A stretch of 64,000 nucleotides of DNA from Allomyces macrogynus ATCC 38327 (taxonomy: Eukaryota; Blastocladiomycota; Blastocladiomycetes; Blastocladiales; Blastocladiaceae): positions 918,350 to 982,349 of the forward strand of contig GG745332.1 of the NCBI GenBank assembly GCA_000151295.1. Direction: 5' to 3'. How positions within the stretch are numbered: the stretch's first letter is position 1; each line of letters opens with the position of its first letter. The notes beneath the pieces were generated by a model that saw only the letters and a program-made list of their open reading frames with translations, made no database searches and was not told the origin of the DNA. Made by a program: the position numbers and the translations under genes. Shown piece after piece: positions 14,820 through 53,100 of the stretch.

Positions 14820-15517
14820 ATGTCCGCTGTCAACGGTGCCAAGCTCTTCAAGACCCGCTGCGCGCAGTGCCACACCGTCGAGGTCCGCTCGCCGTCCCTT
14901 CCTCGCGAAAATGGTCAACTTGCCCCGTGGAACCAGCATCTACCGCCGTCATGGCTTGCCGCGGGCTCTGCGTTCCTTCCGCTGCCGGGCCGCTTGAGTG
15001 CTCGTCGAGCCGAACGGGAACAGGGCCTATAATACTGGCTCCTGGGGCAATTTGGCCACAGATGTCGTTTTCTGCTCGTTGACCACTGTTTGCTCACGAT
15101 GCTCCTCTCTCACGCGTCTTGTAGGCTGTACGTGTCGTCGAACCGAACCACTGCCGCTCGCATTAGGCTGCTGCTCCTGCTCGCCTTGCCGAGCATGCGA
15201 CGCTGCCCGCTCGCCATGACCATGCGAGCTGCGACTGACGCACGCTCCCCCCCTCTCTTCCCTGCGACCAGGGTGCCCCGCATAAGGTCGGCCCGAACCT
15301 CCACGGTCTGTTTGGCCGCAAGTCGGGCACGCAGCCGGGCTACTCGTACACGGCCGCGAACCAGAACCGCGGTGTTGTCTGGGACGACCAGACGCTCTTT
15401 GAGTACCTCGAGAACCCCAAGAAGTACATCCCGGGCACCAAGATGGCGTTTGCCGGCTTCAAGAAGGCCTCGGACCGCAACGACGTGATTGCCTACCTCA
15501 AGGAGTCGACGGCATAA
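14820..15517 (+). CDS. CYC1: Cytochrome c, with a predicted 3-nt microexon
   Basis: This is the soluble electron carrier of the intermembrane space between complexes III and IV. Exon 1 (14820-14882) encodes residues 1-21 with the haem motif CAQCH. Exon 3 (15272-15517) encodes [12 protein letters not shown] to the C-terminus, including the Met ligand in GTKMAF. Direct joining of these exons gives HTVE-GAPHK, one residue short of the family spacing. The intervening 389 nt contain GTAG|GCT|GTACGT at 15125-15127: a strong acceptor, three bases, and the genome's favourite donor. Including it inserts Ala and restores [14 protein letters not shown], making 103 aa with the Met ligand at residue 80. 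Introns are then 242 and 144 nt. Identity is certain; the microexon is inference. Confidence 0.95.
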
Positions 15518-27275: not shown

Positions 27276-28661
27276 TTACTCCTTGGCATCAATGATTCCC
27301 TCGGGCGCGATCGCAAACATGGCCTCGGCCTCGGGCAGGCACGGCGAATCGTAGATCTTGCAAATACGCGTATCGCCACGGCCTTTGCGCAGTGACAGCC
27401 GCGTCGTCGCCGCGTGCGCCATGATGTTGCCGCCAATCGGTTTCTTGGGGTCGGCCGAGAACATGGCGCCGCCGTCGACTTGCGCGACCACCTGGTTTGT
27501 CAGGACCACGGCGATCCCAAACTCGTCGGCGAGACGCAACAGGCCGCGCAGGAAGCGCGCGAGATGCACTTGGCGGGCACTCAGTTCGCCGCGGCCGGCA
27601 TAGTCGGTGCGGTAGAGTGCCGTGCTCGAGTCGACGATCATGAGCGCGTACCTGCGGTGTGGGCGGGGTCAGCGGATGGAAAAGCGGGTGAAGGCAGTGG
27701 CGACCGCGTACCGGCTCTCTGCCATCATGGCCGCGGCCTGGATCAGCAGATTGACCTGGTGGTCTGAGTTGTAGGCTCGCGCGTACGCGATATTGTCGAG
27801 GACCGCGGCGCCGTCAATGTCGAATCTTCAGGAGCCGGGCACGGTCAGGTAACTGCGGTCAACGGGGCATCCCTAAGAAAGACGAACCGCTCGGCGACGG
27901 CCAAGCACCGCTCGGGCCGGAACGTGCCCTCGGTGTCAATATAGAGACACTTGCCCTCGGCGCCGCCCATTTCCACAGGCAGCTGGCACGTCACGGCGAG
28001 GGTATGGCACAGCTGCGTCTTGCCCGTGCGAAACTCGCCAAAGAGCTCGGTGATCGACCCGGTCTCGATGCCGCCGCCCAGCAACTTGTCGAGCTCCGAC
28101 GAACCCGTCGTGATGTGGATCAGCTCGGCGCGCCGCTCGTGCATCGATGTCGCGGTGGTCCAGCCCATGTTGACGAGTTTGAACGCTACCGACGGGAGCG
28201 TGCGGCAAGACACAGTCAGGATATGAACGTTTCGCGCGCGAGCGGAAGTGAAGCGCGCCAATACCCTCGGCCAAGACCTTGTCGGCTTTTGCCTCGGAAA
28301 TGCCCTTGACCTCGACGAGCATCTTTTTGGGCGTGTAGGCGACGGCCTCGACCGTGTAGTACCCGGCGTCGGCGAGCTTGCGCACGTCTCCGGCTGTGAT
28401 CCCGCTGATGCCCTACAGGTTGGAGGAGAGGCGCGGGTCAGCGCGTCGTCTGCCGCCAACCGGCACCGAATATCAAACGAGTACCTCAAGGTGCGCGATG
28501 CTCAGCGCGCCGTTTCCGCGCTGCTGCTGCGCATCGTCGAGCGCGGCGGCGTCGACCGTGGAGGTCGTGGTCGCAGCCGCAGGGCGCGCTTCGGGTTGTT
28601 GCTGCTGTTGCTGCTGCGGTTCGGCGGAGAGTGCGGGCGCCGAGGTTTGCGAGACTTCCAT
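27276..28661 (-). CDS. RAD51: RAD51 recombinase
   Basis: RAD51 forms nucleoprotein filaments on single-stranded DNA and catalyses strand exchange in homologous recombination. Five exons: 28661-28485, 28412-28265, 28185-27888, 27825-27712 and 27651-27276, total 370 aa. An Ala/Gln-rich N-terminal extension (residues ~15-48) precedes the helix-hairpin-helix domain with [10 protein letters not shown] and [14 protein letters not shown]. The ATPase core has [29 protein letters not shown] (Walker A at 158-165), [39 protein letters not shown] (Walker B), and a C-terminal [14 protein letters not shown]. The sequence fits RAD51 better than DMC1. Intron 3 has a GTTCGT donor; others are consensus. It is tandem with the CIBAR-like gene upstream. 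Confidence 0.95.
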
Positions 28662-30715: not shown

Positions 30716-32428
30716 ATGAACTTTGCCGGCTTCCACGCGACGCCCGAGCAGGCCGCCGCGTCGGCCTACACCGAGGGCATGGTGACGCTGACCCCGCAAC
30801 AGATGGCGGCCATGCAGCAGCTCGCGCAGCAGCAGCAGTACGAGCAGCAGCAGCAGATGCTGCACGGCCATTTTGACGCGATGCACGCCGCCCCCGCCCC
30901 CGTCGCGACCGCGCAAGACCAACAACAGACGCTGATCCTGTGTTGCTCGTGCGGCACGGCGATTCCGCCCAACCCGGCCGCCATGTGCGTCGCCTGCATT
31001 TCCAACACAGTCGACATTACCGAAGGCATCCCGAAGCAGTCGACCGTGCACTACTGCCGCAACTGCGAGCGGTACCTGCAGCCGCCCAACGTCTGGGTGC
31101 CGTGCGCGCTCGAGTCGCGCGAGCTCATGGCGTTGCTGCTCAAGCGGTTGCGCGGCCTGACCAAGGTCCGGCTCGTGGACGCCGTGTTTGTCTGGACCGA
31201 GCCGCACTCGAAGCGCATCAAGGTCAAGCTCACGATCCAGAAGGAGGTGTTTGCCAACACCATCTTGCAGCAAGTGTTTGTCGTCGAGTACATTGTTGCC
31301 GGGCAGCAGTGCGAGGCCTGCACGCGCATCATGGCCGACAACACGTGGCGCGCGTCGGTGCAGGTCCGGCAAAAGGTGCCGCACAAGCGCACGTTCCTCT
31401 ACCTCGAGCAGATCATCTTGAAGCACAACGCGCAAAAGGACACGATCAACATCAAGGAGGCGCGCGAAGGGCTCGACTTCTTTTTCGCGCAGCGGTCGCA
31501 CGCCATCAAGTTTTGCGATTTCTTGTCGGCGGTCGTCCCCGTGCGCACCAAGGCCTCGGAGCAGCTCATCTCGACCGATATTCACGAGTCGACGGCCAAC
31601 TCGCGCTACTCGTACTCGGCCGAGTTGGTGCCGATTTGCAAGGACGATTTGATTTGCCTGCCGCCCAAGACAGCGCGGAGTATGGGTGGCATGGGCCAGT
31701 TGGTCCTGTGCTCGCGTGTCGCCAACACGTTGACGATCATCGACCCGAACTCGCTGCAGGGCGGCGAATTCTCGGCGTCCCAGTACTGGCGCGCGCCGTT
31801 CACGGCCCTCGCCTCGACGCGCAACCTGTCCGAGTATTACGTGATTGACGTCGAGCCGTCGGGCATGGTGCGCGGCAAGTACATGCTTGCCGACGTGCAA
31901 GTCGGGCGCGCGTCGGACGACGCCGTCTTTTGGGCGCGCACGCACCTTGGCCACATTCTCAAGGTGGGCGACACGGTGCACGGGTACGACCTGACGTCGG
32001 TCAACTTCAACAGCACGGAGTTTGACACCCTCGAGCGCAACTCGGTCCCGGACGTGATTCTCGTCAAAAAGGCCTACCCGAACCGGCGGCGCGCGAACCG
32101 CGTGCGCCCGTGGAAGCTCAAGTCGATTGCCAAGACGGCCGAGTCGGACCTCGAGCCAAAGAAGGGCCAGCAGGACAAACTCGATGCCGACTACGAGACC
32201 TTCTTGCGCGACCTCGAAGAGGACCCGGAGCTGCGGTCGGCCATCAACCTTTACAAGGACCCGGAGTGGGAGAGCAAGGCCGCGTTGGCAGCGCAGGAGG
32301 CGGCGGCACAGGCCGACATGGACAGCGACATGGACATGGACCCGGAAGAGGACTTCCCGGAGATTGGCCTCGAGGAGCTGCTCGATGACATGAGTCTGAA
32401 TGACGACGGGCCCGATGCGCTTGAGTAG
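30716..32428 (+). CDS. NMD3: 60S ribosomal export protein NMD3
   Basis: NMD3 is the adaptor that carries pre-60S subunits out of the nucleus through Crm1. Single exon, 570 aa. ATG at 30716 is the first that precedes only family-like sequence; the frame is open upstream but that sequence lacks similarity. A Gln-rich extension (residues 28-65) precedes the paired zinc motifs: CCSCGTAI..., MCVACI, CRNCERY and CEACTRIM. The central domain has KKTF-like VPHKRTFLYLEQIILKH, INIKEAREGLDFFFAQRSHAIKF and VPICKDDL. The C-terminus is acidic and contains leucine-rich IGLEELLDDMSL, the expected place of the nuclear export signal. Five-prime UTR carries an ACCG repeat. Confidence 0.96.
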   Translation: MNFAGFHATPEQAAASAYTEGMVTLTPQQMAAMQQLAQQQQYEQQQQMLHGHFDAMHAAPAPVATAQDQQQTLILCCSCGTAIPPNPAAMCVACISNTVDITEGIPKQSTVHYCRNCERYLQPPNVWVPCALESRELMALLLKRLRGLTKVRLVDAVFVWTEPHSKRIKVKLTIQKEVFANTILQQVFVVEYIVAGQQCEACTRIMADNTWRASVQVRQKVPHKRTFLYLEQIILKHNAQKDTINIKEAREGLDFFFAQRSHAIKFCDFLSAVVPVRTKASEQLISTDIHESTANSRYSYSAELVPICKDDLICLPPKTARSMGGMGQLVLCSRVANTLTIIDPNSLQGGEFSASQYWRAPFTALASTRNLSEYYVIDVEPSGMVRGKYMLADVQVGRASDDAVFWARTHLGHILKVGDTVHGYDLTSVNFNSTEFDTLERNSVPDVILVKKAYPNRRRANRVRPWKLKSIAKTAESDLEPKKGQQDKLDADYETFLRDLEEDPELRSAINLYKDPEWESKAALAAQEAAAQADMDSDMDMDPEEDFPEIGLEELLDDMSLNDDGPDALE

Positions 32429-50114: not shown

Positions 50115-53100
50115 ATGACGGGCCCTTCAGGAACAACAATCAACCCGTCGTACAACGCGCCCCGCGCTCCAGGGCCGCATCAACCAGGACCGTCGCTGCT
50201 CCGACCCGCTGGTCCCGGCGGCCGCCACGGCGCCCCTCCTGGTCCCGGGAGCCCCATGATGCACAACGCCCCCAGGATCCGCGCCGACGAAATGATGCAC
50301 TTTACGCCATTGGGTGCCGGGTCCGAAGTTGGCCGCTCGTGCCATATTCTCAAGGTTCCATATCGTCGAATGTCTCCTTTTATTATTTTGGAGGGGTTGC
50401 AAAGCGCAATATATTCTGTCTTTGCTCGTCGGCATTTTTTTGCTTGCTCGCTGGTCAGGACGACGACTGATCAGTGTGGCCTCCCGCGGTTCTCGTTTAT
50501 CACATTTTCGCGACCTACCCAACGGTCATGATCTGTGCAGTTCAAGGGCAAGACCATCATGGTGAGGTTCCTGTTTTTGTTTCATGCGTCCCGGGAATTG
50601 TCATCTTATTCAACCCCGTCGCTTTTAGCTGGACTGCGGTGCCCATCCGGCCTACAATGGACTTGGCGCCCTGCCGTTCTTTGACGAGATTGACCCCGAA
50701 ACGGTCGACCTGGTCCTCATCACCCAGTACGCTGCCGTTTAATTCGTTTCTCGAATAGATCCGCGTCGACACTGATCCGATCACAATCACGTAGCTTCCA
50801 CATTGATCATTGCGCGTCGCTGCCGTACCTCATGGAAAAGGTCAATCAATTCTCGACCGCCATCCGCGTTACGACGACAAATTCCAACCGCTCACCACGT
50901 CTCGCCTTGTCCACAGACTATGTTTAAGGGCCGCGTCTTCATGACGCACCCGACCAAGGCCATTTTCAAATGGATGATGTCCGACTACGTGCGCGTCTCG
51001 GCGTCGTCGGCCGACGACATGCCCTACGATGAGCACGACCTACAAAACGCCTACGACCGCATCGAGGCCATCGACTTCCACCAGGTCGTCGAGGTCGAAG
51101 GTGTGCGGTTCACGGCCTACAACGCCGGCCACGTGCTCGGCGCCGCTATGTTCCTGATCGAAGTCGCGGGCGTGCGCGTGCTCTATACGGGCGACTACTC
51201 ACGTGAAGAAGACCGCCACTTGATGTCGGCCGAGCAGCCGCGCGACCAAGTGGACGTGCTCGTGTGCGAGTCGACCTACGGCGTGCAGAACCACACGCCG
51301 CGCGCCGAGCGCGAAGCGCTGTTCACGAGTCTCGTGCACCAGATCGTCTCGCGCGGTGGGCGGTGCCTGATCCCGATTTTCGCGCTCGGTCGTGCGCAGG
51401 AACTGCTGCTGATTCTCGAAGAGTACTGGGCCGAGCACCCAGAGCTGCAGCACGTACCCATCTACTACGCGTCGAATCTGGCGCGCAAGTGCATGGCTGT
51501 CTACGAGACCTATGTCAACATGATGAACCAGCGCATTCGCAAGCAGTTTGCGCAAAAGAACCCCTTCAAGTTCCAGCATGTGTCCTACCTGAAGAACATG
51601 GCCTCGTTTGACGATGTCGGGCCGTGCGTCATGATGGCGTCGCCCGCCATGCTGCAGTCGGGGCTCTCGCGCGAACTGCTCGAGCTGTGGTGTCCTGATC
51701 GCAAGAACGGGCTCATCATTCCGGGTTACGTCGTGGAAGGGACGCTCGGCAAGGTACTTTCGTTTGTTTTGTTGCGGTTGATCACTGTCTAACTTTTCAA
51801 CTAACGATGCGGATCCCCCTTTGCCAGCACATTCTCTCGCAACCGACCGAAATAACCTCGTCGAGCGGGTCCAAGCTGCCGATGCGGTGCACGATCGACT
51901 ACATATCCTTTTCCGCGCACGTGGATTTCGCGCAGAACCGCGAATTCATCGAGCTCATCAACCCGACGCACCTGATCCTCGTGCACGGCGAGACCAACAT
52001 GATGACGCGGCTGCGCAATGCGCTGCAGTCGGTTTGGGGCGACCGCGAGGACGCGGCACGGATTTACTCGCCCAAGAACGCTGAGTCGGTTGCTTTGCAC
52101 TTCAAGGGCGAAAAGTACGCCAAGGCGTTGGGCGAACTCGCAGCGACAATTGCCGATGCGCCCGTGCCGGGCCAGGTCGTGCAGGGGCTCGTGGTCGGCA
52201 AGGATTTCAACTACCATTTGGTGAGTGTGAATGAGTTGCGCGAGTTTACGGATTTGCGCGCGGCCGTCGTGCACCAGCGCCAGTATGTGCCGCTCGAGTC
52301 GGCCACGTGGGACTTGGTCGTCTGGCACCTCGAGCTCGTGTATCCGGAGTGGACTAAGGTGATCCCGGCCGTACCGGCGGCCGAGGAGGTCGAGCCCAAG
52401 GAGGGGTTCGAGCCGAGTGTCGCGAACGGTGCCGAGGCGACGAAGCCCACCAAGTCGGCTGAGGACGGCGAGTCGCCAGCTCGTGTGGCGACGCCAGACA
52501 AGTCGGACGCCGACTCGCCCGAGAAGTCGGCCAACGGTCCGACAACGCCAACGAAGCTCGAGTCGGACGACAAGCCGGCGACTCCAACCAAGGCCGAGTC
52601 TGGCGTCAAGTCGCCGAGTCCTGCCCCGGCGCCGGCCAAGACGGATTCGGTTGACAATCCAGCAAGCGGCACGGCGACGCCGGCCAAGCCCGCGTCGGTG
52701 GTCGTGTGCGACGTCGTGCGCGTCACCATGGCCGCCAATCGCCGCGAGTTGATTGTCGAGTGGGACGGGAACCCGGTCAACGACGTGCTCGCCGACTCGG
52801 TGCTCGCGGTGCTGCTGCACGTCGAGTCGTCGCCCGCGTCCGTCAAAAGTGCGTGATGTTGCGACTCTCCGCCGCTTTTTTCCTGGAGCTGACCTCACTT
52901 TGTCAAGTGACGACGCCCGCCCCGGGCAAGTGCGGCCACAACCACGCGCACCACCGGCACCACGACCACGGTCCCAAGGACGCCAAAATGGACGAGGCCG
53001 ATTCTGAGAAGCCCGATGATGCGGCTCCGATGCAGGAAATGGCTGACCTCGAGCTCACGACGCCGTCGGCGCTCAAGCTGCAAGAGTTCCACGAGTTTGT

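Follow-up and report, generated by a model that had tools for sequence, protein, structure and literature searches.

A predicted three-nucleotide exon in a cytochrome c gene of Allomyces macrogynus and in its diverged paralogue

In 2015 the smallest constitutive exon then known was 6 nt long and the smallest alternative exon 3 nt, according to the cited part of the report that describes a constitutive 1-nt exon in Arabidopsis APC11 (PMC4674806). Constitutive 1-nt exons are on record for plant APC11 and VPS55 in the sections cited (PMC4674806, PMC8831610), and 3-bp exons are named for Drosophila homothorax, troponin T and rodent NCAM in the relevant section of another source (PMC7392893). Both copies of the fungal gene lipS of Dactylellina haptotyla are stated to contain two exons of 3 nt (PMC5639578), and for fungi microexons from 5-6 bp upward are described, as far as the cited sections extend, in bglA (PMC9142197) and in P450 genes (PMC1184071). 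In the collection of papers searched, none linked microexons with Allomyces, and no fungal 3-nt case occurred among the microexon papers listed; the fungal precedent came from a paper on twin introns (stwintrons). Here we describe a cytochrome c locus of Allomyces macrogynus in which a 3-nt exon, GCT, placed between two ordinary GT-AG introns, very probably supplies Ala22 of the protein.

Structure of the gene and the residue expected from homologues

The window, the whole 64,000-nt stretch of DNA that was analyzed, has a G+C content of 63%, and a gene on its plus strand encodes mitochondrial cytochrome c, with three predicted coding exons of 63, 3 and 246 nt. Coding exon 1 (14820..14882, +; 63 nt) encodes 21 residues with the heme motif CAQCH, and coding exon 3 (15272..15517, +; 246 nt including the stop codon) reads from GAPHKVGPN to YLKESTA and is 94% identical to that of a second copy on contig C66. 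Between them, predicted intron 1 (14883..15124, +; 242 nt, GTCCGC...TTGTAG) and predicted intron 2 (15128..15271, +; 144 nt, GTACGT...GACCAG) enclose the putative exon GCT (15125..15127, +), a one-codon insert for Ala22 whose triplet recurs in the C66 copy. Upstream of GCT stands CGCGTCTTGTAG and downstream GTACGT, and 17 of the 22 bases ahead of the TAG of this inner acceptor are pyrimidines. The predicted mRNA junction is GTCGAGGCTGGTGCC if GCT is included and GTCGAGGGTGCC if it is skipped.

The preliminary description had proposed this exon, a single Ala codon, from several features of the sequence, and these were confirmed. Exons 1 and 3 spliced directly read HTVE-GAPHK and leave the protein one residue short, as claimed; GCT lies between an acceptor and GTACGT exactly where it had been placed; the acceptor is pyrimidine-rich; and branch-like sites occur in both introns, TTGAC at 15079-15083 and CTGAC at 15235-15239, upstream of the two acceptors. 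Ala22 from GCT restores the conserved ten-residue stretch from CxxCH to GPNL, and the features of a mitochondrial (class I) cytochrome c, namely CxxCH, the ten-residue stretch to GPNL and full-length homology, come together only with the 3-nt exon. Seven in-frame, stop-free GT-AG insert exons no longer than 120 nt can be drawn in 14883-15271, and GCT is the single-codon one, the other six spanning 9-111 nt. The corresponding interval on C66 allows three under the same limits (up to 120 nt, no stop); insert lengths of 3, 9 and 12 nt are common to both copies, and the encoded residues are identical in both only for the 3-nt one.

The expected length of this region was taken from 128 homologues, 120 of them listed in one protein search and 8 new from a second, with thousands more matched. 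In 127 of the 128 homologues listed, ten residues separate CxxCH from GPx[L/I]; in one the number is nine. At the place of Ala22, the listed homologues with ten residues have A in 72, K in 20, E in 15, Q and S in 8 each, N in 2, and C and D in one each. The ten-residue form is found in Blastocladiella, Catenaria, Sorochytrium, Paraphysoderma and Coelomomyces, and the Blastocladiella emersonii protein, among the best protein matches (95% identity, 103 aa), reads HTVEAGAPHK. Against solved cytochromes c, of which 85 matched, the protein with Ala also aligns with equal query and chain spans in each of the 60 listed, many of the listed chains being mutants of the same few proteins. A search of the genome's own sequences with the Pfam Cytochrom_C profile returned no matches, though DNA and protein searches found both copies.

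The sole exception among the 128 homologues listed is the public gene model of Allomyces arbusculus (protein P0003; also among the best protein matches, 97% identity, 102 aa), which reads HTVEGAAHK. Genome annotation frequently overlooks the very smallest exons, as the cited section of PMC8831610 states, which makes loss of the codon during annotation likelier here than real skipping. This public cytochrome c model, which is without the residue of the 3-nt exon, may need correction.

The paralogue on C66 and the expectation by chance

DNA and protein searches of the organism's own genome, in an assembly of 54 Mb and 75 contigs that is gapped and in which only the best candidates were scored, placed two copies of cytochrome c among the matches listed. 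The second gene lies on C66 at 1295443-1295993 and has the same two outer exons. Between these exons the C66 copy has 242 nt and the window copy 389; alignment of the two intervals gives 108 identical bases among 239 aligned, so that alignable similarity is lost, and BLAST of the two loci against each other recovers the outer exons only, with nothing between or around them. Within its diverged interval the C66 copy carries GATTCTAG followed by GCT and GTAAGT, with the inner acceptor TAG as in the window copy. This GCT (C66:1295620-1295622, or L008 5120-5122), between AG and GTAAGT, separates counterparts of intron 1 (L008 5006-5119; 114 nt) and of intron 2 (L008 5123-5247; 125 nt). The 3-nt exon is thus kept beyond one locus, in the window copy and in the C66 paralogue. 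With GCT included both genes encode 103 aa, the proteins differ only by P25A, and 19 of the 20 nucleotide differences between the coding sequences are synonymous. In both copies the triplet would qualify as a microexon, an internal exon of no more than 15 nt with canonical sites (TAG-GCT-GTACGT in the window, TAG-GCT-GTAAGT on C66).

Taken alone, the motif in the window copy is weak evidence: AG-NNN-GT arises in 294 of 1000 dinucleotide shuffles of the window intron and in 13,361 of 20,000 random 389-nt segments of contig C66, and the stricter AG-GCN-GTRNGT in 1 of 1000 shuffles. Joint occurrence in both introns is another matter. Of 1000 shuffled pairs, one had an identical triplet within AG-NNN-GT in both members, and none had AG-GCN-GTRNGT in both with an identical codon; among 20,000 random genomic segment pairs, the same Ala codon in AG-GCN-GT was found in both members of 10, and an Ala codon within AG and GTANGT in both members of none. 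Plain similarity of the introns proves nothing by itself, because the longest word they have in common is located away from the exon and its length is reached in 122 of 1000 shuffles. What lifts the motif far above chance is that AG-GCT-GT is kept in the C66 paralogue, within an intron that has otherwise diverged. We regard this paralogue as the decisive evidence, and the prediction is well supported in that what survives there is precisely the required codon with an acceptor before it and a donor after it. The proposed one-codon exon gains support from both the paralogue and the equal spans to solved chains. The arrangement with a 3-nt exon would predate the duplication of cytochrome c.

Splice sites, intron lengths and alternative readings

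For comparison, we used ten reference introns from three genes of the window (phosphomannose isomerase, CPSF73 and AIP1/WDR1), placed by reading frame with the aid of alignments to solved relatives, the introns of other genes being left out. Nine of them measure 66-83 nt and one 186 nt, and four of the ten have the donor core GTACG. Under donor and acceptor matrices built from these ten introns, the inner acceptor is in both copies the top-scoring AG of the interval; in the window copy, at 6.34, it is only just ahead of an AG at 15061 (6.09). The inner donor ranks second in the interval of the window copy and third in that of the C66 copy, its score being lowered by T as the last exon base. 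Scores of the last acceptors are low, at 1.98 and 0.74, yet inside the leave-one-out range of -4.3 to 6.0. All four cytochrome c introns have branch-like motifs (TTGAC, CTGAC; CTAAC, TTAAT) 28-42 nt from their acceptors, which is weak support because only 4 of the 10 reference introns have one. In B. emersonii, introns seen in ESTs are mostly 60-79 nt long and all those analyzed have a CTAAC-like branch site, as the cited section reports (PMC2773782).

If the whole interval (14883-15271 in the window, 242 nt on C66) were removed as one intron, the cytochrome c of this lineage would truly be one residue shorter, as the public A. arbusculus model has it, and the donor of exon 1 and the last acceptor are canonical in both copies. 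This reading is improbable: the residue is present in 127 of 128 homologues listed, blastoclad genera included (Blastocladiella, Catenaria, Sorochytrium, Paraphysoderma and Coelomomyces); the AG-GCT-GT kept in the C66 copy is left unexplained; and introns of 389 and 242 nt would be needed, longer than every one of the ten reference introns. The two-intron path, at 242 and 144 nt in the window and 114 and 125 nt on C66, comes nearer to the reference range of 66-186 nt than 389 and 242 nt do. Alternatively, the exon may be real and often skipped, giving two forms of 103 and 102 residues whose balance is perhaps regulated. Both splice paths are canonical and keep the frame, many of the 3-nt exons in print are alternative according to the cited sections (PMC4674806, PMC7392893), and heat and cadmium are described as inhibiting splicing in the relative B. 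emersonii (PMC2773782, cited in part). Frequent skipping is nonetheless unlikely, as the nine-residue form occurs in 1 of the 128 homologues listed and purifying selection on both copies, with 19 of 20 differences synonymous, favors one form. GCT is most likely a constitutive exon that would be included in essentially all mRNA.

Two further readings without a microexon fare worse. One intron with shifted, non-canonical ends could keep a Val codon on the donor side, where GTC (window) and GTG (C66) both encode Val, or three bases before GGT on the acceptor side. On the donor side the intron would start with CG, and Val stands at this place in none of the 127 ten-residue homologues listed; the triplet kept on the acceptor side would be CAG in the window but the stop codon TAG on C66, and we rejected both versions as scarcely credible. 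It is just as hard to credit that the AG-GCT-GT island is a stwintron or a recursive splice site that leaves no trace in mRNA, although a long intron with an acceptor next to a donor inside it resembles such arrangements and fungi do have stwintrons. Removal of 14883-15124 brings G next to GCT and rebuilds no GT donor, removal of 15128-15271 joins T to GGT and rebuilds no AG acceptor, and a recursive site, being a zero-length exon, is at odds with the GCT that separates AG from GT in both copies. Two other single codons in the window interval, AG-GCT-GC at 15167-15169 (Ala) and AG-CAT-GC at 15194-15196 (His), would each depend on a GC donor; on C66 the interval has AG-NNN-G[T/C] only at the GCT island and at the final acceptor.

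Genome context, order of splicing and comparison with known tiny exons

Much of the window, within positions 1-60000, is collinear with C69:551058-625096 in long blocks of 75-87% identity, as would be expected of homeologous chromosomes if the genome is hybrid or polyploid. The stretch of C69 matching the cytochrome c locus falls within 558401-578400, where 19,829 of 20,000 bases read N, so that a third cytochrome c copy is neither shown nor excluded there. Because the window and C66 copies have lost similarity in introns and flanks, the cytochrome c duplication is probably older than the split of the window from C69, and the origin of the 3-nt exon would lie further back again. Over its last 200 kb, C66 shows no collinearity with the window, the matches being limited to cytochrome c and one other gene. 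At about 27276-28501 (-) the window holds a gene that we take to be RAD51-like, with copies at C66:1349631-1350813 and C69:1819383-1820332 and introns that differ among copies. On C66 some 54 kb separate this gene from the second cytochrome c gene, a proximity that may point to an old segmental duplication.

The NMD3 gene of the window (30934-32283) has counterparts of 76% identity on C64 and C62 in addition to one of 87% on C69. The CPSF73 gene (50115-52856) contains a 21-nt exon (50541-50561, +) encoding FKGKTIM between introns of 186 and 67 nt, and the joined protein aligns without gaps to human CPSF73 across it, making this a second microexon in the window. An Rfam search of the window gave no matches.

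A three-base exon offers nothing for exon-definition factors to bind, and its two sites, only 3 nt from each other, leave no room for two complexes together. The two introns of the cytochrome c gene would therefore probably be removed in succession by intron definition. One intron would leave first and the second splice would use the site at the resulting join, and both orders of removal are compatible with the sequence. If this is true, two splice sites 3 nt apart are used in strict succession, with near-complete efficiency and in every cell, and the gene provides a natural test of how an intron-definition spliceosome deals with exons too small for binding. The test of stepwise splicing would be a clean one because the outcome of skipping is predictable, a deletion of one residue after the heme-binding motif.

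On balance, we lean somewhat towards the broader view that this single-codon exon has been obligatory and constitutive in a core respiratory gene since before the Allomyces cytochrome c duplication, possibly since early blastoclads, and that the lineage's public gene models lose the codon. The sole Allomyces protein retrieved is without the residue, which would show how annotation can lose such exons, and comparing diverged paralogous introns for a surviving AG-codon-GT could reveal more of them.

The size suggested by the preliminary description, which had ranked the exon among the smallest known, stands, and the exon is not unique, as 1-nt plant exons and 3-nt animal and fungal exons are in print. 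Should RNA confirm it, it would be among the shortest constitutive exons of any organism, in a protein that ranks among the most conserved and in an early-diverging fungal lineage. Like the exons of APC11 and VPS55, it would be an ultra-small conserved exon between canonical introns that annotation misses; those exons are of 1 nt and are shown by RNA in plants in the sections cited, whereas the cytochrome c exon has 3 nt and is predicted from DNA. With the exons of homothorax, troponin T and NCAM it shares a single codon and a kept frame, but the Drosophila homothorax and NCAM exons are described as alternative in the relevant section (PMC7392893) and the cytochrome c exon is most likely constitutive. 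The very small exons of bglA and the P450 genes likewise lie between short fungal introns; they are longer and from basidiomycetes, and those of bglA were set by comparison with cDNA, according to the cited sections (PMC9142197, PMC1184071). The gene lipS likewise has 3-nt exons in a fungus and in both copies of a duplicated gene, in a one-sentence mention within the section cited (PMC5639578), where the gene is of lipase type, has more than 10 introns and belongs to an ascomycete; cytochrome c, by contrast, is central to respiration, the fungus belongs to another phylum, and diverged introns are compared. Exons of 3 nt are already known in animals and in one fungal gene, and exons of 1 nt in plants; what gives the present case its interest is the gene, the lineage and the evidence from a paralogue.
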